From positions 1 to 64,000 of the forward strand of contig NZ_RHFH01000009.1 of assembly GCF_004745075.1 (NCBI RefSeq): 64,000 nt of DNA, written 5' to 3'. This DNA comes from Brevibacterium sp. S111 (GTDB lineage Bacteria > Actinomycetota > Actinomycetes > Actinomycetales > Brevibacteriaceae). Position numbers and translations under genes: made by a program. Within the stretch, counting starts at the first letter, position 1. The number at the start of each line of letters is the position of its first letter. The notes beneath the pieces were generated by a model. The model was not told the DNA's origin, did not search any database, and saw nothing but the letters and a program-made list of their open reading frames with translations. Positions 50,386-61,198 of this stretch are shown here, piece by piece.

Positions 50386-52107
50386 ATGACCACCAAGCCG
50401 TCGTTCACCCAACATGATCCGAGCCGCGTCATCCGCGCCGACCGCGGGACCGAGATCACCGCGAAGTCCTGGCAGACCGAAGCGCCCAAGCGCATGCTCA
50501 TGAACAACCTCGACCCCGAGGTCGCCGAACGTCCCGAAGACCTCGTCGTCTACGGCGGCACCGGCCGGGCGGCTCGCTCCTGGGAGGCCTACGACGCGAT
50601 CGTGCGCACCCTCGACGACCTCGAGGACGACGAGACCCTCCTCATCCAGTCCGGCAAGCCCGTCGGCGTCATGCGCACCCACGAATGGGCCCCGCGCGTG
50701 CTCATCGCCAACTCCAACCTCGTCGGCGACTGGGCGAACTGGGAACACTTCCGCGAGCTCGAAGCAGAAGGTCTGATGATGTACGGGCAGATGACCGCCG
50801 GTTCCTGGATCTACATCGCCACCCAAGGCATCCTCCAGGGCACCTACGAGACCTTCGGCGCCATCGCCCGCAAACGCTTCGACGGAACGCTGGCCGGAAC
50901 CCTGACCATCACCGCCGGCTGCGGCGGCATGGGCGGTGCCCAGCCCCTGTCCGTGACCCTCAACGGCGGTGCCTGCCTCATCATCGACGTCGACAAGACC
51001 CGCCTCGACCGCCGCCGGTCCAAGCGCTACCTTGACGAGGTCGAAACCGACCTCGACACCGCCCTGGCCAAGGTCATCGAAGCGAAGAAGAACAAGCAGG
51101 CCCTGTCCGTCGGACTCGTCGGCAACGCCGCCGAGATCCTCCCGACGATCCTCGACCGCCCCGAGGCCGCCGAAGTCGACATCGTCACCGACCAGACCTC
51201 AGCCCACGACCCCCTGTCCTACCTGCCCGTGGGCGTGAGCGTCGATGACTGGAGCGATGAGGCCGAACAGGACGCAGAGAAGTTCACCCTCCGCGCCGAG
51301 GAGTCCATGGCCAAGCACGTGCGTGCCATGGTCGAATTCCAGGACCGCGGCGCCGAGGTCTTCGACTACGGCAACTCGATCCGCGACGAGGCCCGCAAGG
51401 CCGGCTACGACCGCGCCTTCGAATTCCCCGGCTTCGTCCCGGCCTACATCCGCCCGCTCTTCTGCGAAGGGCTCGGACCCTTCCGCTGGGTGGCACTGTC
51501 CGGCGACCCGAAGGACATCGAGGTCACCGACGCCGCGCTCAAGGAGCTCTTCCCCGACAACGAACACCTCCACACCTGGCTCGATGCCGCCAACGAGTAT
51601 GTCGAGTTCGAAGGCCTGCCCGCCCGCATCTGCTGGCTCGGATACAAGGAACGCCACCAGGCCGGGCTGCTGTTCAACAAGCTCGTCGCCGAAGGCAAGA
51701 TCTCGGCCCCGATCGTCATCGGTCGTGACCACCTCGACTCCGGATCGGTCGCCAGCCCCTACCGCGAAACCGAATCCATGCTCGACGGCACCGATGCGGT
51801 TGCCGACTGGCCGCTGCTCAACGCCTTGGTCAACACCTCCTCAGGTGCCACGTGGGTGTCCATTCACCACGGCGGCGGAGTCGGCATCGGCCGCTCCATC
51901 CACGCCGGACAGGTCTCCGTGGCCGACGGCACCGAACTGGCCGCCAAGAAACTGGCGCGCCTGCTCACCAACGACCCGGGCATGGGCGTCATCCGCCACG
52001 TCGACGCCGGCTACGACCGCGCCGCCGAAGTGGCCGAAGACCGCGGTCAGCGCGTGCCGATGATCCCCGAACTGGATCAGCGCGACGAGGAATCCGCCGC
52101 GCAGTAA
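50386..52107 (+). CDS. hutU: Urocanate hydratase
   Basis: This enzyme converts urocanate to imidazolonepropionate with tightly bound NAD+, the second step of histidine degradation. The 573 residues include the NAD-loop [10 protein letters not shown] (about 180-190) and the conserved [13 protein letters not shown], in which Cys416 corresponds to the catalytic cysteine of bacterial urocanases. The ATG follows AAGGAG. It carries a hut-type operator upstream and a strong terminator-like hairpin after the stop. It is a separate transcription unit from hutI-hutH, which lie 7.8 kb away beyond an unrelated cluster. Confidence 0.97.
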
Positions 52108-52268: not shown

Positions 52269-53174
52269 CTATTCGTCGAGGAAGAGGTCGAGTTCGAGGT
52301 CATCGGGGCCGTGACCGACAGAGCCGGGCCGCGACGGATCATGTGCATAGACGGACAGGTCCGTGATGCCCCGAGCCTGCAGCACCTCGTCGTCGATGAA
52401 GAAGTTGCCCGTGACCTCACGCGGGTCTGCGGTGAGGATCGTCCATGCGGCCTCGGCCATGATCTCGGGCTTGCGGCTGCGTGCCATGAGCTGTTCGCCG
52501 CCGAGGAGGTTGTTCACCGCCGCTGTCGCGATCGTCGTCCTCGGCCACAGACTGTTGGCCGCGACTCCCTCCTCGCGCAGCTCTTCGGCCAGCCCGAGCG
52601 TGACCATCGACATTCCGTACTTCGCCATCGTGTAGCCCAGGTGCTTGCCTGCCCATGCCGGATTGAGGTTGAGCGGCGGAGACAGCGTGAGCACATGTGC
52701 GGCATCCGAGGCCTTGAGGTGTGGGATAGCGGTCTTGGCCAGCAGGAATGAACCGCGTGAGTTGATCGAGTTCATGAGATCGAACTTCTTCATCGACAGA
52801 TCCTCGGTCGAGGACAGGTCGATGGCGCTGGCGTTGTTGACGACGATGTCGATCCCGCCGAAGGTCTCCGCGGTCTGCGCGACCGCCTCGGCGACGGATT
52901 CCTCGCTGCGGACATCGCCGACGATCGGCAGGGCACGTCCACCGGCCGCCTCGATCTCCTCTGCTGCCGTAAAGACGGTGCCCTCGAGCTTCGGATGAGG
53001 TTCCGCGGTCTTCGCCAAGAGCGCCACGTTCGCGCCGTCCCGTGCCGCGCGCAGCGCGATCGCCAGGCCGATCCCACGGCTGCCGCCGCTCATGAGGAGG
53101 GTTCTGCCTGCAAGCGTGCGTTCCGGGACGGCCGCAGATTCGCGGCCCTCGGTGAGTCTGAAGTCAGTGGTCAT
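52269..53174 (-). CDS. HSDL2-like short-chain dehydrogenase/reductase
   Basis: This gene gives 301 residues from the ATG of MTTDFRLTEGRE, which overlaps the upstream FAD gene stop by 4 bases. The cofactor motif is GGSRGIGLAIA (about 35-45), the NNASA motif is near 119, and Ser in LTLSPPLNLNP and YTMAKYG supply the catalytic residues. The LSPPLNLNP block, and the GNFFIDDEVL and VYAHDP endings, match the hydroxysteroid-dehydrogenase-like 2 branch, which in animals is peroxisomal and linked to fatty-acid metabolism. It is the last gene of a leftward operon with a CrtI-like and a DUF3556 protein. Confidence 0.9.
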   Translation of the reverse strand: MTTDFRLTEGRESAAVPERTLAGRTLLMSGGSRGIGLAIALRAARDGANVALLAKTAEPHPKLEGTVFTAAEEIEAAGGRALPIVGDVRSEESVAEAVAQTAETFGGIDIVVNNASAIDLSSTEDLSMKKFDLMNSINSRGSFLLAKTAIPHLKASDAAHVLTLSPPLNLNPAWAGKHLGYTMAKYGMSMVTLGLAEELREEGVAANSLWPRTTIATAAVNNLLGGEQLMARSRKPEIMAEAAWTILTADPREVTGNFFIDDEVLQARGITDLSVYAHDPSRPGSVGHGPDDLELDLFLDE

Positions 53175-54598
53175 TGCGTCTCCTTGAGTGATTGTTTTGC
53201 GGCCAGATAGCCGCACATTCCATGTGCGCCCGGGCCCGGAGGCACCGCGGCCGAGCACAGGTATATCCCTGACCGACCGCCGCTCGGTGCGCTGAGTCGG
53301 TAGGGGCTGAACCCAGGTGTCGGACCGAGCACCAACTGTAGAGGGTCCTTGCGGCCGGTGAGGATGTCACCGCCGACGAAGTTCGCATTGAGTGATTCGA
53401 TCGCAGTGGTCCCGCGAGGCGTCACCGCGAGGATCCGATCTCGGCATCCAGGGGCGAAGCGTTCGATCTGGGCGAGGATCGACTCGGTGGCGTCTCCTGT
53501 AAAGCCCTGTGGCACGTGCGCATAGCAGTCGATCGGAACGAGTGAACCCTTCCCACGTCCGGGGTCCGCAAGATGTTGCTGGGCGAGGAGGACGAATGGC
53601 TTCTCAGGCATCCGACCTTTGGAAGTCTCGCTCTCCGCGAACGCCGTCTCCTCGTATGACCCTGAGAGATGGACGGTTCCGGCACCCCGGGACGGTTCGT
53701 AGGTCCACGGGATCCCGCCGTCCACGGCCAGTGCGAGTTTGAACGCGGCCGGCCCGTTCTTCCACCGTTCCAAACTCCGCACCGCACGCACCGGCAGTGA
53801 GTTGCCCGCGATGCGGGCCGCCTCAGCGGGGCCGGTGTTGAGCATGAGCACATCCGGGTTGCCCAAATCCCGAACGTCCTCGACCCTTCGTCCGGTCTCA
53901 ACCCGTCCGCCAAGGGACAGAAGGAGCGACTCCATTGCCGAGGTGATCCGACCCGATCCGCCGACCGCCACCGGCCAGCCGAAGTAGTGAGCGGCCGAGG
54001 CAAGAGACGTGCCGATCGCCGAAGAGAGCGGCGCGTTGAAGGGGCCGAAGGTGTGCGCTGCGACTCCCGACCATAGGGCACGGGCCTCCTCGGTGCGGAA
54101 GTACCTCGCAACGGCGGCCGCGGGCAGTGCCGCCCGCGCGCCCAACATCGCAAGATGGAAAGGGTGCCGGGGCAGATGGATGAGGGACTGGAGGAACTCG
54201 TCGGCAACCGTCGGCATGCGCGAAGCCACGGGCGAGAAGAACGTCCGGTATCGCTGGGCATCGGCACCGAGGGTGCGTGAGGTCTCCACCACGGATCGCA
54301 CGGCGCTGGCTCCGCGACCGTCATCGAGCGGGTGCGCGAACTCGACTTCCGTGTGAGCCCAGTGAAGACCGTGCTGTTCCAGTGGGAATACGCGAGCAAA
54401 CTCCGAGGCCAGTCCGAAGGGATGGTGGCTCGAGCAGTCGTCGTGCACAAGACCAGGAAGGGTGAGTTCGGAGCTGCGAGCGCCGCCCCCCACGTGATCA
54501 TCTGCCTCGTACACAGTGACCGAGACGTCGGCAGCGGCCAGGGTGATGGCCGCCGCCAGTCCGTTCGGTCCACTGCCGATCACAGCAGCGGTCGTCAT
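53171..54598 (-). CDS. Phytoene-desaturase-like FAD oxidoreductase
   Basis: This 475-residue protein has the N-terminal FAD site AAVIGSGPNGLAAAI (4-18) and the ADDHVGGGARSSEL signature after it. The C-terminal FAD contact region (GIYLCSAAVPPGPGAHGMCGYLAA) ends the protein, as in the CrtI / amine oxidase fold. Members desaturate or isomerise carotenoids, retinoids or other lipids. It lies 15 bases downstream of the DUF3556 gene and overlaps the SDR start, so it belongs to one operon. The lipid substrate is unknown. A role in ordinary carotenoid synthesis is unlikely without crtB/crtE neighbours. Confidence 0.9.
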   Translation of the reverse strand: MTTAAVIGSGPNGLAAAITLAAADVSVTVYEADDHVGGGARSSELTLPGLVHDDCSSHHPFGLASEFARVFPLEQHGLHWAHTEVEFAHPLDDGRGASAVRSVVETSRTLGADAQRYRTFFSPVASRMPTVADEFLQSLIHLPRHPFHLAMLGARAALPAAAVARYFRTEEARALWSGVAAHTFGPFNAPLSSAIGTSLASAAHYFGWPVAVGGSGRITSAMESLLLSLGGRVETGRRVEDVRDLGNPDVLMLNTGPAEAARIAGNSLPVRAVRSLERWKNGPAAFKLALAVDGGIPWTYEPSRGAGTVHLSGSYEETAFAESETSKGRMPEKPFVLLAQQHLADPGRGKGSLVPIDCYAHVPQGFTGDATESILAQIERFAPGCRDRILAVTPRGTTAIESLNANFVGGDILTGRKDPLQLVLGPTPGFSPYRLSAPSGGRSGIYLCSAAVPPGPGAHGMCGYLAAKQSLKETQ

Positions 54599-54613
54599 TC
54601 TCGGGCTCCTCGT

Positions 54614-56527
54614 CTAGTCACGCTCGGCGGCGTCCTGCAGGGCCGACTCCGTGGTGAGGTCGTGACGCTTCGCCGCAGACTCGGGTTTCTGGGCACCCGC
54701 GGATTGCGGAGCAGATTCCATTGAAGACACCGCGGCCCGGGAGGCTGAAGTGTAGTGCGGATCCCTCCACGTCACGTTGAGCGGAATCGGTCCGTTGGGA
54801 AGCCACGGCTGCTCCTTGACGCAGTCGGCAACGTTCCAGGTACCACGTTCCACGATACCCACGGCCGCGTCAATGACCATGTAGTTCTGAGTCGACTTGT
54901 GGATCGGCTGTGACTCAACCCAGGCGACGACGAACTCGCCGGGCTCGAACTGGCAGCGACGCTGGAGTTCGGCGATGAGGTGGTGGTTATGGAGGTGACC
55001 GTCACCGAAGTTGAAGCCCAACAGCGAGTTGCAGGAGAACTCCGCCTCACGGATCGTGGCCCGATCGACGTCGTTGACGTGATGGTGCAGAAGAGAGAAC
55101 AGTCCGCGACCCTGACTGTGCATCGATCGCCAGCCCGCGGTCTGCAGCATCGTGATCTCCGCCGCCACTCGCGGGAACCCCATCTCCTGCAGCTGGTCGA
55201 CCTGGTTCTTCGTCGGACGATTCACGGCATGCAGCTTGTCCTCGGCACCGGGTTGGAAGGCCCAGAGCGCCGAGGCCCAGTTGCCCGCATACTGTCGCAT
55301 CGACGGGGTGAAGGCGACGAGGTCCGGGCGAAAATTGCCGAGCACGGGGAAGAAGAACAGACAGGCCACGGTGGCGACGATGAGCCATGGAGAGCTCGCA
55401 TCGCCCAGCCCATAGCCGTCCCCATTGGGGTGGCCGAGGAAGAGGAACCCCGCGATGTACATGAATAGCAGATTCCATTCCAGGGGCACCGCCAAAGGGA
55501 AGGTGCTCGTGATGAACCCGTGGAAGAGGATCATCAGCAGTGTCCCGGCGAGGGCCAGGGTCCAATCCGTCGAGAGGAGGAGGACAAGCGGAGTGACGAT
55601 CTCGACGAGAGTGCCGAGGATGTGCCCGATGCCGGAGGCCAGATGGGACGGCCTGACATCGTGGGGGTAGTTGCGATAGTGCAGACGCCTGATCGCCTTG
55701 CCCGGGATGATCGGCGCATTCGAGATCATCGGCGGGATCACGAAGGAGAAGTGCTTGCCGATCTTTGAGACTCCGGCCCCCACCCAGACGGAGAAGATGA
55801 GCAGCTTGAGCATGATGATCATGTCGACGAGACCGTTGCCGAGGAAGGGAACCAGCCCGAAGATGAGAACGGCGGGTCCGTACTGTTCGGCACGGGCGGC
55901 GATGAAGATCACCTTGTCGCGCAGTCCCATGATAACGAGTAGCACGAGTGGTACGAACATCAGCGGCGGGCTGATCAGGTTCCCGAGGTCCTCGGGAGAG
56001 CCGGCGGCCACGGTCGATCCGGTGGCCCCCGGCAGAATGATCGGGACGAAGAGCGCAACGAGCAGCAGCGCATAGAGGACCACATCGAATACTGTGCGGT
56101 TGAATCCGTTGGTTCCTGGAACCTTCCCGGGCCACGGAGGCATGCGGATGGTGCCGGGCCGCAGCCAGAACAGGCAACCACCCGTCATCGGCTTGAACTT
56201 CCCGGCCAAAGGCCCCCACGAACCGGCCACGCCGATGGTCTCAAGCAGGAAAGTCCAGAGCACGAGCTTCTGGAACACGATCGGCTCGTTCCACCACTGA
56301 GCCACCTGCCACGGGGCGCCGACGCCCGAGGTGAGCGTGGCCAGGGTGACGCCGATGCCGATGTAGAGAACGGCGAGCTTGAGGATGTAGATGATGTGGA
56401 ACAGTTTAGGTGAGCCGAACCCGCAGTCGACCCAGTGGAGGACGACGGCCCTGATTCTCTCCGAGAGGGGGAGGGATTCGAATGTCTCAGCATCAACCGG
56501 AGGGGCATCCGGAGTTGTGAGTCCCAT
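54614..56527 (-). CDS. DUF3556 transmembrane protein
   Basis: This gene gives 637 residues from the ATG of MGLTTPDAPPVDAE, preceded by a strong GAAAGGA site; 15 in-frame codons upstream are excluded. About ten hydrophobic helices fill residues 50-440. The family was noted in mycobacteria and has no known function. A histidine-rich part follows the helices at about 478-516 (SLLHHHVNDVD and FGDGHLHNHHLIAEL), then a soluble ~120-residue tail ending in charged Ser/Ala-rich sequence. The His clusters could hold metal; this is inference. It is the first gene of the operon with the CrtI-like and SDR genes. Confidence 0.85.
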   Translation of the reverse strand: MGLTTPDAPPVDAETFESLPLSERIRAVVLHWVDCGFGSPKLFHIIYILKLAVLYIGIGVTLATLTSGVGAPWQVAQWWNEPIVFQKLVLWTFLLETIGVAGSWGPLAGKFKPMTGGCLFWLRPGTIRMPPWPGKVPGTNGFNRTVFDVVLYALLLVALFVPIILPGATGSTVAAGSPEDLGNLISPPLMFVPLVLLVIMGLRDKVIFIAARAEQYGPAVLIFGLVPFLGNGLVDMIIMLKLLIFSVWVGAGVSKIGKHFSFVIPPMISNAPIIPGKAIRRLHYRNYPHDVRPSHLASGIGHILGTLVEIVTPLVLLLSTDWTLALAGTLLMILFHGFITSTFPLAVPLEWNLLFMYIAGFLFLGHPNGDGYGLGDASSPWLIVATVACLFFFPVLGNFRPDLVAFTPSMRQYAGNWASALWAFQPGAEDKLHAVNRPTKNQVDQLQEMGFPRVAAEITMLQTAGWRSMHSQGRGLFSLLHHHVNDVDRATIREAEFSCNSLLGFNFGDGHLHNHHLIAELQRRCQFEPGEFVVAWVESQPIHKSTQNYMVIDAAVGIVERGTWNVADCVKEQPWLPNGPIPLNVTWRDPHYTSASRAAVSSMESAPQSAGAQKPESAAKRHDLTTESALQDAAERD

Positions 56528-56790
56528 GTCGCTTCCTTTCACAGGCAGGTGCCCGACTCCGATGTCGAGCAAGTGGACCTGGAATCACCCTAGGGAGGAT
56601 GTGTCTTGGATCCCATGGATACTCAGCCGAAGCTCCGCGAAGAATTTGTACTCCCGATACAACATGGTCCTTCACCCAGAAGCTCCGTGTGGCGAATGTC
56701 CCTCGGGCGGGTATCAGCGTGGACAGGGAGCCCCTTTCGCGTGTTTCCCTCTGTGGTGCTCGGCCACAGCCCAGGTGAGGCTGCCGCCTG

Positions 56791-58086
56791 TCAGCCCTCG
56801 GTTCCATAGAGATAATGGTGAGCATGCAAAGCGGACTCGATGTTCAAGCGGTTCTCTGTCAGACTCACTCCGAGGGCCGCCTCGGCCATCTCGACCCGGT
56901 ACCGGATTGAGTTCTTGTGCATGGTCATCGAGGCCGCTGTCGCCGTGTAGCTGAGCTCATGGCGCAGAAAGGCCGAGAGAGTGTTCCGGTGGCGGGCATT
57001 CGCCTCGGTGTCATCGGCCAGCGGACCGAGCACCGATCTCACCCACACTCGAGCAGCCTCGACGTCCTGGGCCAGCAACGAGGTAACGGCCATACCCCGG
57101 TCGTCGTGTGATCTCAGCTCAGCGGGAGCGCGCCCGGCGATGCAGACGCGCTGCACGCGTTCTGCTTCCTGATGGGAGAGGCGAAAACCGGCGGACAAGG
57201 CGTGCGCGGAGCCGATCGCCAGATGGATCGAGCCCGACGGCGGCACACGCTGGCGAAGAGAGTTGTCGTAATCCCAGTCGGTCGGCACAGGGATCCACCC
57301 CCAGGCGGTGTCCTGGTCCCGGCCGATGATGAGGCAGGTACGCTGGGAGCCGAGCGCGCCAGCAAGGTCTCTGATGGCTGTGGTGAACCGATCCAGCTGA
57401 CCGTTCGCGTCGGGGGCCGAGTGGTGGGTCCATGCGATGACTGCGACATGACGACCGCCGAGGCTGTAGGCGAGGATCCGCTCGGCCGCCGCGACGTCGA
57501 TGTTCTCCCCGGCGATGATGCGTCTGACCTGGGTCTCCCTGGCCGTTGTGCGATTGGCCAGCCAGGATTCCCGTTCCTGCTCGTAGAGTTCAGCGACCTT
57601 CTGCGAAATCCAGTCGATGTACTCCGAAACCTCGTCGACGAGGTGCTGGAAAACCGCAGAGACGAGCTCCGCCGGCAGCTCCTCGTCCTCGATGACGAAA
57701 TCGTAGGCGCTCTGGAGCATTCTCTGCTGCCCCAGACGATAGGCCCTGACCAGTGCATTGACGGAGATTCCGCGTTGGGCTAGCCGTCTGGCGTATTCAA
57801 ACGCGGCGGTCGGCGGTTCCAAGTTGTCCGAGGAGATGCCGTGCTGAAGCGCGTGGAGGATCGTTTCGACATTGCCCTCGATGCTTGCACTGAGGAGATC
57901 GAGGAGAGCCGGTTCGGCACCGAGCTCGGTGATCTTCGTCGCCAGATAGTCGTAGACCCGTCGTGTGAGCTCGGGAATGTGCGGGGTCATGCCCGCAGCG
58001 ATCCGCGACGCGTGGGTCCGCACCTCCGTGGTGGAGCTGTCGGCTTTCAGCCCGTCATTGGGCGGCCAGAGCAGATGATCGACCAT
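56791..58086 (-). CDS. PucR/CdaR-type transcriptional regulator
   Basis: This 431-residue protein has an N-terminal helical sensor region (about 25-180, RRLAQRGISVNALVRAYRLGQQR typical of this family), a GGDEF-like middle part (about 205-310), and a C-terminal helix-turn-helix (about 365-425, LSYTATAASMTMHKNSIRYRVE). Such activators respond to small metabolites. It is divergent from the acyl-CoA ligase gene (147 bases) and upstream of the DUF3556 operon on the same strand, so it probably controls both. Confidence 0.9.
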   Translation of the reverse strand: MVDHLLWPPNDGLKADSSTTEVRTHASRIAAGMTPHIPELTRRVYDYLATKITELGAEPALLDLLSASIEGNVETILHALQHGISSDNLEPPTAAFEYARRLAQRGISVNALVRAYRLGQQRMLQSAYDFVIEDEELPAELVSAVFQHLVDEVSEYIDWISQKVAELYEQERESWLANRTTARETQVRRIIAGENIDVAAAERILAYSLGGRHVAVIAWTHHSAPDANGQLDRFTTAIRDLAGALGSQRTCLIIGRDQDTAWGWIPVPTDWDYDNSLRQRVPPSGSIHLAIGSAHALSAGFRLSHQEAERVQRVCIAGRAPAELRSHDDRGMAVTSLLAQDVEAARVWVRSVLGPLADDTEANARHRNTLSAFLRHELSYTATAASMTMHKNSIRYRVEMAEAALGVSLTENRLNIESALHAHHYLYGTEG

Positions 58087-58233
58087 GTCTGCACAGTACC
58101 GCCGATTGAGGCCCGTGGGGACGGCCGAGTCGACGAAAGCGCGAGCCGTGTTTGTATCTTTGACCGAAATGGCGATGGTGATTTGGTTACCGTGCCCAGT
58201 GAACGTGCGTCAACGCGTGGCTAGTGTGAGGCC

Positions 58234-59763
58234 ATGATGACTTCGAATCCTGTCCCCATCGACGCGGAATCCTCCACCTATCCCGTCGCCGAGGTGATGG
58301 GGCTGCCCCTTGCTCGTGCCCGAACCAACCCCCACGGACCATGCCTCAGCTGGCCCGGAGGCAGTTTCGACAATGCTGAGTTCGCCGCCGCTGTCGCGGC
58401 CACAACCCACATACTGCGCTCGCGGTTCGGAATCGGTCGCGGTTCGGTGGTTGGTGTGTTGCTGCGCAATGTCCCCGAAATCATCACCACGATGTTCGCC
58501 ACCTGGTCTCTCGGCGCCGGTCTCACTCCGATCAACCCTGCGCTCACTGACGACGAGGTGGTCTTCCAGCTCGACGACTCCGGCTGTGCCCTGCTCGTGG
58601 GGGACTCCCGCGCCGAGGCGCTCGCCAGAGGATGCGGGATCGGCTGCCTTCCGGTGACCGACGGCTGCTTCCGCGGTGACATGGAGCCCTGCGCTGGCGT
58701 CTCTTCGCACTGCCTCGATGACGTCCGGGATGACGACGTGGCGCTCATCGTCTACACCTCGGGGACGACGGGCAAGCCGAAGGGATGCGTTCTGGAGCAG
58801 TCGAACATCGCTGCCATGGTCTGGTCGATCTTGAATGGTCTCGACTTCGGTGAGAACGCCCGCAGCCTGCTGGTTCTCCCGCTCTTCCACTGCAACGGCC
58901 TGCTCGCGGGGACGGTCTCACCTCTCATGCTCGGCGGCAGCGTGCATATGATCCCGAAGTTCGATCCCGAGTCATTTTGGGACGTCGTGGAGGAAGAGCG
59001 CCCCACCTATTTCTCTGCTGTGCCGACGATCTTCTCGATCCTCGAGGCGACGACGACTCGGAATGTCGACTCGAGTTCTCTGCGCTTCGTCATCTGCGGT
59101 GCCGCCCCGATGTCCCCGGACGCGATCACCCGGTTCGAGACTCGTTTCGATGTCGACATGGTCGAGGGTTACGGTCTCTCGGAGTGCTCGGTGTGCGCCA
59201 CGATCAACCGAAACGATGGTACGAGCAAGCCGGGAACCGTCGGGCCAGCACTGCCAGGAGTGAGCGTGGGAATCACCGATCCTCACGATCGACTGCTCGA
59301 ACCTGGGGATGTCGGAGAGGTCGTGATCGCTGGGCGGACGGTGATGCGCGGGTACCTCGGCCGACCGGAGGCCACCGCCGAAGTGCTCAAGAACGGGTGG
59401 CTGCACACCGGGGACGTCGGATACCTCGATGAGGACGGCTTCCTCGTCCTCGTCGATCGGATCAAGGATCTCATCATTCGCGGCGGAGAGAACATCTATC
59501 CCAAGGAGATCGAGGATGCGCTCTTCGAACATCCTCAGGTTCTCGAGGCAGCGGTGGTCGGAAGCCCCGATGACACCTACGGGGAGATCCCCGTGGCTCA
59601 TGTGGCTCTGCGTGAAGGAGCCGTCAATCGTGCAGAGACCCTGCGAGCCTTCCTCGAACCGCGGCTTGCGCGCTACAAACTCCCGGCGGAGATCCATATC
59701 CACGCAGGTCTTCCGAAGAACTCCGTGGGCAAGATCGTCAAGGGTCAGCTGCGAGAGAGCTGA
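58234..59763 (+). CDS. AMP-forming acyl-CoA ligase
   Basis: This 509-residue ANL-family enzyme has the P-loop YTSGTTGKPKG (about 174-184), A5 VEGYGLSECS, A7 GWLHTGDVGYLDEDG, A8 DLIIRGGENIYPKEIE, and the adenylation Lys in NSVGKIVKG near the C-terminus. It activates a carboxylic acid to acyl-CoA. The substrate length cannot be read. It is divergent from the PucR-type regulator and across from the DUF3556/CrtI/SDR operon, so it probably primes the same lipid-like substrate. The ATG has a second ATG right after it. Confidence 0.92.
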   Translation: MMTSNPVPIDAESSTYPVAEVMGLPLARARTNPHGPCLSWPGGSFDNAEFAAAVAATTHILRSRFGIGRGSVVGVLLRNVPEIITTMFATWSLGAGLTPINPALTDDEVVFQLDDSGCALLVGDSRAEALARGCGIGCLPVTDGCFRGDMEPCAGVSSHCLDDVRDDDVALIVYTSGTTGKPKGCVLEQSNIAAMVWSILNGLDFGENARSLLVLPLFHCNGLLAGTVSPLMLGGSVHMIPKFDPESFWDVVEEERPTYFSAVPTIFSILEATTTRNVDSSSLRFVICGAAPMSPDAITRFETRFDVDMVEGYGLSECSVCATINRNDGTSKPGTVGPALPGVSVGITDPHDRLLEPGDVGEVVIAGRTVMRGYLGRPEATAEVLKNGWLHTGDVGYLDEDGFLVLVDRIKDLIIRGGENIYPKEIEDALFEHPQVLEAAVVGSPDDTYGEIPVAHVALREGAVNRAETLRAFLEPRLARYKLPAEIHIHAGLPKNSVGKIVKGQLRES

Positions 59764-59826: not shown

Positions 59827-59844
59827 TGTCCGAAATATCAGACA
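59827..59844. promoter_or_regulatory. hut-type operator upstream of hutI
   Basis: TGTCCGAAATATCAGACA reads TGTCCGA-AATA-TCAGACA, a near-perfect palindrome with one mismatch, 83-100 bases before the hutI GTG. It is the third member of the set with 46416 and 50215 and defines the 18-bp length best. It lies 63 bases past the acyl-CoA ligase stop. Confidence 0.7.
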
Positions 59845-59926: not shown

Positions 59927-61198
59927 GTGCAGCTCATCACGGGGATCAGCGAATTGGTCGTCAACGACCTCGACTCCCTCGGAGAACTCAGCGTCATCAC
60001 CGACGCCGCCCTGCTCATCGACGACGGCCGAGTCGTCTGGTCCGGACCGTCCGCTGAGGCGGACACTGCGGTGGAGAACCATTGCGGTGAAGAACCGTCA
60101 CCAGGTGTCAACGACGACGATATCGTCAACGGGGAAGTCACCTCGGCGAGTGATCTCGCGGGACTCGAGACCGTCGACCTCGGCGGTAAAGCCGTGATCC
60201 CCGGCTTCGTCGACAGCCACAACCACCTCGTCTTCGCCGGTGACCGCTCCGAGGAATTCGCCGCACGCATGGCCGGGCAGAAGTATTCGGCCGGCGGCAT
60301 CGCGACTACGGTCGCCGCGACCCGGGCCGCCAGCGACGAGGAGCTCGAGGCCAACCTCGTCCACCTGATGGAGCAGGCGACTCGGCAGGGCACGACGACG
60401 TTCGAGATCAAGTCCGGGTACGGGCTGAGCCTCGACGATGAGATCCGTGCCCTGGACATCATCAACCGGCACACCGAGGAAACCACGCTCATCGCCGCCC
60501 ATGTGGTCCCGCCGGAGTACAAGGACAACCCCGAGGGCTACGTCGACCTCGTCATCGACGAGATCATCCCGGCGGCCGCGGACAAAGCGAAATGGATCGA
60601 CGTCTTCTGCGAGAAGGGAGCCTTCACCGAGGACCAGACCCGCCGCATCATCGACGCCGGCAAGGCCGCAGGCATGAAGCCGCGGCTGCACGCCAACCAA
60701 CTCACCGAGGGCGGAGCGCTCAAACTCGGCGCCGAACTCGGCTGCGTCTCCGTCGACCATGCGACCTTCGCCTCGGACTCCGATCTCGCCGTCCTCGCCG
60801 AGGCGGGAACCGTCGTCACCCTGCTGCCGAGCATCGAATTCTCCACCCGTCAGCCATACCCCGATGCCCGCCGCTACGTCGAGGCCGGTGTGCGGCTCGC
60901 CATCGCCACCGACTGCAACCCGGGCTCAGGGTTCTCCAACAGCGTGCCCTTCGCGATCGCCATCGGTGTGCGCGATATGCACTTCACCGTCGAGCAGGCG
61001 GTGTGGGCGGCGACCGCGGGTGGGGCCCACGCTCTGCAGCGTTCCGATGTCGGCCACCTCGGCGTCGGAGCCCGCGCCGATCTGGCGATCCTCGACGCAC
61101 CCAGCTATCGGCACCTGGCCTACCGGCCGGGAGTCCAGCTCGTCGAACGCGTCTACTCCAGCGGCGAACTCGTCGTCGACAACCGACCACGGAGCTGA
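59927..61198 (+). CDS. hutI: Imidazolonepropionase
   Basis: This enzyme hydrolyses imidazolonepropionate to N-formimidoyl-L-glutamate, the third step of histidine breakdown. The 423 residues start at a GTG after AAGGAT. Metal ligands include the HxH of DSHNHLVF (His98, His100), His in AAHVVPPEY (about 190), and Asp in ATDCNPGS near 327. An acidic insert of about 30 residues (44-76, EPSPGVNDDDIVNGE) is found in the N-terminal barrel edge. It is followed 108 bases later by hutH and probably cotranscribed. A hut operator lies upstream. Confidence 0.96.
   Translation: MQLITGISELVVNDLDSLGELSVITDAALLIDDGRVVWSGPSAEADTAVENHCGEEPSPGVNDDDIVNGEVTSASDLAGLETVDLGGKAVIPGFVDSHNHLVFAGDRSEEFAARMAGQKYSAGGIATTVAATRAASDEELEANLVHLMEQATRQGTTTFEIKSGYGLSLDDEIRALDIINRHTEETTLIAAHVVPPEYKDNPEGYVDLVIDEIIPAAADKAKWIDVFCEKGAFTEDQTRRIIDAGKAAGMKPRLHANQLTEGGALKLGAELGCVSVDHATFASDSDLAVLAEAGTVVTLLPSIEFSTRQPYPDARRYVEAGVRLAIATDCNPGSGFSNSVPFAIAIGVRDMHFTVEQAVWAATAGGAHALQRSDVGHLGVGARADLAILDAPSYRHLAYRPGVQLVERVYSSGELVVDNRPRS

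Follow-up and report, generated by a model that had tools for sequence, protein, structure and literature searches.

What is the role of a compact set of five genes lodged among the histidine-utilisation genes of a Brevibacterium? The question is raised by the window, a stretch of 64,000 nucleotides that forms the first 64 kb of contig NZ_RHFH01000009.1 of Brevibacterium sp. S111 (assembly GCF_004745075.1; 4.04 Mb in 70 contigs). Here the only DUF3556 gene of the genome lies with genes for a CrtI-superfamily flavin adenine dinucleotide (FAD) oxidoreductase (hereafter CrtI), an HSDL2-like short-chain dehydrogenase (SDR), a PucR-family regulator and an adenosine monophosphate (AMP)-forming acyl-coenzyme A (CoA) ligase, with hutU to the left and hutI to the right. 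We find that the conserved unit, present in many soil actinobacteria, is PucR–ligase–DUF3556–CrtI, with the SDR as an optional partner. New here are the predicted likeness of DUF3556 to GGCX, the human vitamin K-dependent gamma-carboxylase, its inverted predicted orientation in the membrane, and a 17-bp dyad. The explanation that we favour, while rating it slightly short of an even chance, is a PucR-controlled CoA-ester pathway with a menaquinol-dependent DUF3556 and a CrtI-type flavoenzyme.

Conservation of the gene set around DUF3556

Relatives were recovered by a scan with a DUF3556 alignment, in which at least 580 stretches were confirmed and the best 80 kept; these are the nearest relatives, so that the sample leans to this branch, and the closest named DUF3556-bearing ones are Brevibacterium. 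Partners were counted within 6 kb in the 64 of 80 loci with enough flank, leaving out 16 short-flank loci, and a close HSDL2-like SDR was accepted at 45% identity or more. CrtI was found near DUF3556 in all 64 full loci, PucR in 60 and the ligase in 54. The sequence-only reading, which took these genes for a dedicated set, is borne out: rather than lying scattered in relatives, all three partners accompany DUF3556 in 54 of 64 full loci, under 16 of 17 genus-level labels, and that the gene set is real and conserved is close to certain. Of the two associations of DUF3556 that it proposed to look for, the one with CrtI stands and the one with HSDL2-like SDRs is optional, a close SDR occurring in just 9 of the 64 loci, from nine genera. 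Clustering of neighbouring open reading frames (longer than 300 bases, at least 38% identity) over 121 loci gave no further recurrent neighbour, the clusters present in at least 10 loci being DUF3556, CrtI, ligase, PucR and SDR. In a less biased sample, DUF3556 was present in 23 of 396 genomes of the phylum. Searches of one open-access library on DUF3556 and related subjects gave no paper title on this cassette.

In 70 of the 74 loci that gave a CrtI match, the CrtI gene follows DUF3556 directly, in the same orientation; Rhodococcus jostii RHA1 (NC_008269.1) likewise has the two genes next to each other. Most Nocardia, Streptomyces and mycobacterial loci have PucR transcribed away from ligase-DUF3556-CrtI; the order is ligase-DUF3556-CrtI-PucR in Gordonia, most Microbacterium loci and several Rhodococcus, and DUF3556-ligase-PucR-CrtI in two Nocardioides (L093, L099). 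That the content of the cassette is kept despite this rearranged order argues for a function. Plasmid records of Tsukamurella and Rhodococcus also carry ligase, DUF3556, CrtI and a PucR-like gene as a group. The 'plasmid' records of the Tsukamurella tyrosinosolvens strain look like parts of a larger replicon, one of them carrying ilv and serA genes; in this strain (L036 1-6138) the end of a mycofactocin cluster is about 3 kb away from the cassette regulator gene. Two truncated forms were seen: on the Rhodococcus ruber plasmid pmega_1 (L040 12019-12843) the DUF3556 gene lacks the N-terminal half and is still followed by CrtI and a PucR-like gene, and in G342 (L152 9001-9369) a DUF3556 fragment covering model positions 1-123 sits between a ligase gene and a PucR gene.

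A tree of 119 DUF3556 proteins, midpoint-rooted for drawing only, separates two sides; left out of it were L133, L137, L138, L152, L154 and L155 and proteins of fewer than 480 residues. One of the alignments was made without the second copy of L061 (348 unmatched columns). On the larger side (91 rows), 69 rows have all partners, 11 CrtI and one other, 5 CrtI and 6 none, some being cut by contig ends. On the smaller side (28 rows), 8 rows have CrtI only, 2 CrtI and one other and 2 the full set, and three of these four multi-partner rows are second copies beside a cassette. Since DUF3556 and CrtI are paired on either side of the midpoint root, their association is probably old. Three observations tell against a fixed tie among these genes: 16 of the 28 rows on the smaller side have no partner at all, one mainly mycobacterial-family branch carrying DUF3556 alone; Brevibacterium G006 and G023 retain CrtI without DUF3556, PucR or ligase; and there are CrtI relatives elsewhere that have no DUF3556 annotated alongside. 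Within the partner-free branch, a thiolase gene directly follows DUF3556 on the same strand in L131 (9001-11958, by Pfam) and L129 (8923-11992, by clustering), and in L130 (8368-8943) a DoxX gene lies directly 5' of it.

Predicted fold, conserved lysine and orientation of DUF3556

The sequence-only reading placed at the centre of the set a membrane protein of unknown function; its family assignment holds (PF12077, 801 bits against a cut-off of 28.5), and we can now add that relatives exist and that the protein is predicted to fold like GGCX. Searches with single sequences and with profiles gave no match for DUF3556 among solved structures. A model built from 56 sequences (predicted local distance difference test, pLDDT, 85; predicted template-modelling score, pTM, 0.86) returned, among the best 50 of 237 Foldseek matches, 13 GGCX entries at probability 1.00, the other 37 reaching at most 0.15. 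In a structural alignment with 980 entries aligned, 15 GGCX rows scored Z 12.9-14.2 and the next row 7.2; no other fold exceeds Z 7.2, which by itself excludes no family. The GGCX alignment reaches residue 562 or beyond, into the C-terminal domain, in 13 of the 15 rows, and begins at model residue 77-80 in all of them, so that helix 1 (41-65) is without a counterpart in GGCX. Bacterial HTTM proteins were collected as an independent test, in a broad set of 29 and a strict VK-type set of 11. With the local settings tried, hhalign aligned DUF3556 profiles to the broad sets at probabilities of 29-71% (56%, 29-49% and 33-71% by run; E 6e-4 to 4e-5), against 0.2-0.8% for reversed-alignment controls; global mode gave nothing useful. 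On the strength of the model, DUF3556 very probably has the GGCX fold. The case is weakened by the low Foldseek TM-scores of the GGCX matches (0.28-0.34), by a Z of 13-14, near the caution limit for helical bundles, by the Pfam HTTM model PF05090, matched by none of 27 DUF3556 members (limit E 10, with filters that drop most matches above 0.1), and by the strict VK-type sets (2 or 11 proteins), against which hhalign gave 0.1-0.9%, no better than reversed.

The residue register was set by L170, a bacterial HTTM protein that matches GGCX by phmmer at E 1.6e-48 and whose K191, H133 and F259-H260 are equivalent to Lys218, His160 and Phe286-His287. N159, H160, K218, F286 and H287 are kept in 11 of 11 VK-type proteins, and in the broad HTTM set Lys218 is kept in 23 of 29 and His160 in 16 of 29. 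By this phmmer register and by hhalign, a remote alignment, DUF3556 K255 falls on GGCX Lys218; it is invariant in 27/27 and 56/56 sequences. In the same register A251 (27/27) falls on Ala214, F335 on Phe286 (24/27) and H336 on His287, and F260 (27/27) would fall on Trp223 if the alignment is extended gap-free beyond the lysine, an extension that hhalign itself does not make. R212, E214, E350 and H511 are further invariant polar residues. Roles for Lys218, Ala214 and Phe286 in GGCX are described in a cryo-electron microscopy paper, in which Ala214 is a menaquinone-tunnel residue (PMC12589487). Against an intact GGCX active site stands the other end of the pocket: His160 is not kept, its position falling, depending on the alignment and in an unsure register, on invariant R212 or E214 (both 27/27), the aligned stretch of the window DUF3556 holds no histidine, and Asn159 falls on an alanine. 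From these alignments the quinone end of the pocket looks kept and the glutamate end changed; because the His160/Asn159 pocket is not kept, the carboxylation step need not be kept either.

Loop charges bear on which way this pocket faces. Averaged over 27 proteins, the net charge on the K255 face is +5.2 for loop 99-145, +2.0 for loop 203-212 and +4.7 for loop 255-294; the five loops of the opposite face range from 0.0 to -1.6 and have no more than 0.4 K+R each. The 56-protein set agrees (opposite-face K+R at most 0.6). The bias is reversed in the 11 VK-type proteins, whose net charge is +1.3 to +2.7 on the side opposite Lys218 and +0.3 to -1.0 on the Lys218 side. The loop boundaries were taken from a single model and, in the case of L170, were read by us. 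By the positive-inside rule for loops, K255 is predicted to face the cytoplasm, opposite to the luminal or outer active face of GGCX, and the extra first helix would cause such an inversion. Contrary to a simple charge rule, the N-terminus (-0.8 net) and C-terminal domain (-5.1) lie on the K255 face, where loop 343-348 is neutral; moreover, a hydropathy scan finds 9 membrane segments against 10 helices in the model, which makes the side of the C-terminal domain less sure.

A candidate operator and the hutU-hutI site

The dyad was first noticed by eye in three Brevibacterium promoters and then counted, the window promoters being among the 73 upstream regions examined. TTGT-N6-14-ACAA occurs in 46 of these regions, against a mean of 0.48 and a maximum of 3 in 200 single-base shuffles, which ignore kinship, so that the numbers overstate independence. 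The exact 17-bp form, TTGT-N9-ACAA, has 59 sites within cassettes and their 300-bp margins, in 51 of 87 loci, compared with 13 sites outside cassettes in nearly twice the sequence; it recurs in Brevibacterium, Rhodococcus, Nocardia, Streptomyces, Gordonia and Mycobacterium, and is absent upstream of 16 of 16 partner-free DUF3556 genes (L122-L132, L136, L140, L148, L150, L156). Between the arms, 29 of 54 distinct sites have pairing bases at positions 5 and 13 (2000 shuffles: mean 15.3, maximum 25, with the same caveat on kinship). The regulator itself matches PF13556 (44 bits, cut-off 27) and PF17853. From the co-occurrence we infer that PucR binds the dyad, which is probably its operator. This assignment has to accommodate the 36 of 87 loci that lack the exact dyad, among them L043, L045, L038, L039, L093 and L099, pairing at 6-12 (30; mean 21.1, maximum 31) and 8-10 (32; 23.8, 34) that is raised yet within the shuffles, and pairing at 7-11 that is not raised (20; mean 18.6, maximum 30). 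Some of the 59 exact dyads (L107, L121) are also not 5' of a called start.

In the DUF3556 tree the window protein groups with those of Brevibacterium, Rhodococcus ruber IEGM 1391, Nocardioides zeae and G042, and not by species. Among 57 Brevibacterium genomes, hutU was matched in 51 and hutI in 51; where both lie on one contig (50 genomes), their distance spans 2 bp to 17 kb, with a gap of at most 1.5 kb in 29 and a larger one in 21. Gap sizes were read by hand, and the content of the larger gaps was inspected in four of the 21 (G000, the window genome, G022, G023 and G006). The interval is possibly a hotspot for insertions. Within Brevibacterium the cassette is an accessory insert, which in G000 and G022 (L165) occupies the space between hutU and hutI. 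G032 (L043) has PucR, DUF3556 and a partial CrtI next to hutI, close to where the contig stops, and no match to the ligase. G023 and G006 keep CrtI (G023 the SDR too) beside a 32-33-residue DUF3556 remnant between hutI and CrtI (L155, L154); this shared remnant marks where ligase, PucR and the greater part of DUF3556 have been lost, and CrtI keeps an open reading frame. CrtI of G023 is 96% and its SDR 77% identical to those of the window, which makes recombination likely. The ratio of nonsynonymous to synonymous substitution rates (dN/dS) of CrtI is 0.12-0.14 in all six pairs and cannot separate the time before the G006/G023 deletion from the time after it; with recombination likely, the value carries no weight. 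G453 (L160) carries ligase-DUF3556-CrtI-PucR-SDR at another site; hut gene order differs in G014 and may differ in distant species.

The features of the window are collected below. Coordinates and family searches agree with the earlier description of DUF3556, CrtI and the SDR as tightly packed: SDR and CrtI overlap by 4 bases (53171-53174), and 15 bp separate DUF3556 from CrtI. That description had the PucR gene between the three genes and an opposed ligase; both are present, with PucR sharing the strand of DUF3556, 263 bp upstream of it, and diverging from the ligase across 147 bp. It made no mention of the hut genes on either side. As a side observation, an imperfect palindrome, TGTCCGAAATATCAGACA, stands at window positions 59827-59844, 5' of hutI, with similar words noticed by eye in G023 and G006; it is possibly a site for a hut regulator.

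Features of the cassette and its flanks, in window coordinates
Feature	Position	Strand	Basis
hutU, left flank, outside cassette	50386..52107	+	TIGR01228, 897 bits
HSDL2-like SDR, optional partner	52269..53174	-	ATG at 53174; PF00106, PRK08278
CrtI-superfamily FAD oxidoreductase, core	53171..54598	-	PF13450/PF01593; model pLDDT 91; 4rep Z 33.7
DUF3556 membrane protein, predicted GGCX/HTTM fold, core	54614..56527	-	ATG at 56527; PF12077; model
K255 codon (aligned with GGCX catalytic Lys218)	55763..55765	-	counted from ATG at 56527
TTGT-N9-ACAA dyad, candidate PucR operator	56646..56662	.	118 bp 5' of DUF3556 start
PucR-family regulator, core	56791..58086	-	PF13556, PF17853
Degenerate dyad copy between PucR and ligase	58152..58168	.	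6/8 arm bases; weak, chance possible
AMP-forming acyl-CoA ligase, core	58234..59763	+	PF00501, PF13193; YTSGTTGKPKG and PKNSVGKI motifs
hutI, right flank, outside cassette	59927..61198	+	TIGR01224, 371 bits

A proposed pathway, its rivals and known systems

The partner enzymes are typed to superfamily or subfamily. For the CrtI-like model, the best match was the gamma-carotenoid desaturase 4rep, with a root-mean-square deviation of 3.0 over 442 residues, followed by an archaeal oxidoreductase (Z 27.6) and renalase (26.5); its curated-model scores lie below cut-off (CrtI 35 against 238, CrtD 22-25 against 500-580 and CrtO 44 against 1000 bits). A second CrtI relative, at 38-44% identity, is present in most Brevibacterium genomes, so that this branch is wider than the cassette, and the contexts of seven plasmid-borne CrtI relatives share no theme. 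The SDR scores 430 bits with PRK08278 (cut-off 250), has the YxxxK and GGSRGIG motifs, and has 3sc4, 3e03 and 3kvo (HSDL2) as its closest solved chains. In G031 (L157 10777-11982) a CrtI relative at 54% identity is convergent with the gene of a true HTTM protein (PF05090), a hint that CrtI-like enzymes have paired with HTTM-fold proteins on more than one occasion; the neighbours scanned in G455 and G002 (L158, L159) are not HTTM.

For the pathway we infer the quinol use, the chemistry, the substrate and the order of the steps. The ligase would convert a carboxylic acid to its CoA thioester, and DUF3556 would have its active site turned to the cytoplasm, where CoA esters are. Through K255 it would deprotonate menaquinol, the quinone of these organisms being vitamin K2, and with O2 yield a strong base able to abstract a carbon-bound hydrogen of the activated acid, in a carboxylation, isomerisation or oxidation. 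CrtI would desaturate or isomerise the same molecule, and its electrons may go to menaquinone and so supply quinol for DUF3556; the SDR, where present, would oxidise or reduce a hydroxy or keto intermediate, and PucR would act at the dyad. Whether DUF3556 performs quinol-dependent chemistry is in our estimate evenly balanced, and action on the ligase's CoA ester has rather less than an even prospect. Carboxylation as such is doubtful, its standing lowered by the lost histidine, and equally doubtful is the most specific form of the proposal, a cytoplasm-facing menaquinol/O2-dependent acyl-CoA enzyme, such as a biotin-free carboxylase, driven by CrtI-made quinol; if true, it would put vitamin K carboxylase chemistry on a small molecule rather than a protein. 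The window genome also has one HTTM protein (L177, G000:C7:39777-40607) and one VKOR gene (L169, G000:C46:80160-80555), the latter a possible recycler of quinone epoxide.

Other readings of the same locus shift the role of DUF3556 or of the whole set. DUF3556 might have the GGCX fold and do no base chemistry, binding quinone as a redox or scaffold protein through which electrons move between the menaquinone pool and the CrtI-like flavoenzyme, in a pathway of acid activation followed by flavin desaturation; CrtI, its most constant partner, accompanies it on either side of the tree, relatives of CrtI use quinones or O2, and the His160 of GGCX is lost. A mere quinone site would, however, not need an invariant Lys218 equivalent, and R212, E214, E350 and H511 are invariant as well, so that we place this reading on the unlikely side. 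Decidedly less likely is a role in transport or membrane anchoring, in which DUF3556 would deliver a hydrophobic acid to the ligase and its GGCX likeness would reflect a common helical arrangement. The 9 or 10 predicted membrane helices beside a ligase, and Z-scores near chance level for helical bundles, would suit it; but the top 15 rows all belong to one enzyme family, the aligned range extends into the C-terminal domain, and the conserved lysine and FH motif fall in register by an independent profile method.

As to the purpose of the set, the sequence-only reading had it activate and oxidise a lipid or isoprenoid acid; taken as the making or degradation of an isoprenoid, a steroid or a branched-lipid acid, this reading has in our view a small probability, between those of the doubtful carboxylase and the transporter. 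The fold of CrtI is indeed closest to a carotenoid desaturase, and a DUF3556 relative is up in Rhodococcus opacus R7 on polyethylene (log fold change 5.5; PMC8556283), a hint that names no substrate. The cassette, however, has no other neighbour that recurs in 10 or more of the 121 loci, and ligase models give no specificity, the seven ligases scanned all falling below cut-off in the best 25 models for each protein; a lipid or isoprenoid acid is thus compatible with the pathway that we favour and unsupported as to substrate. A part in histidine use has next to no probability: the site is shared with G022 and cassette parts lie beside hut in G032, G006 and G023, but most Brevibacterium gaps are too short to hold a cassette, hut queries matched only the 2 Brevibacterium loci among 86 searched, and a regulator and dyad of its own come with the cassette.

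The menaquinol-dependent CoA-ester pathway remains our preferred explanation. DUF3556, a family of unknown function, gains a predicted fold, a candidate catalytic lysine, a predicted membrane orientation, partners and a regulator, and the dyad and the ligase offer direct handles on inducer and substrate. If the quinol chemistry is right, the vitamin K carboxylase fold has a second role, in bacterial small-molecule metabolism.

Set beside known systems, each component is a recognisable relative with its own departures. GGCX and HTTM proteins resemble DUF3556 in predicted fold from residue 77-80 onward; unlike them, DUF3556 has no Pfam HTTM match, one extra N-terminal helix and the opposite predicted orientation. 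GGCX works on protein substrates and holds its glutamate substrate with His160 and Asn159, whereas DUF3556 lacks both residues and is partnered by an acyl-CoA ligase and a flavoenzyme; loss of His160 is shared by 13 of the 29 proteins of the broad HTTM set. The cassette flavoprotein has the full-length fold and N-terminal FAD motif of the CrtI/CrtD desaturases (4rep; 4dgk, CrtI) but only 17% identity, below the NCBIfam CrtI-family cut-off. With HSDL2 (3kvo) the cassette SDR shares the SDR domain of the subfamily (phmmer, 310 bits) and lacks the C-terminal SCP2 domain, for which there was no match. With PucR/CdaR-type regulators, as in the Rv1453 family model, the window PucR has in common the PucR helix-turn-helix and a GGDEF-like domain; it differs in scoring 109 bits against an Rv1453 equivalog cut-off of 600 and in its own candidate site, TTGT-N9-ACAA.

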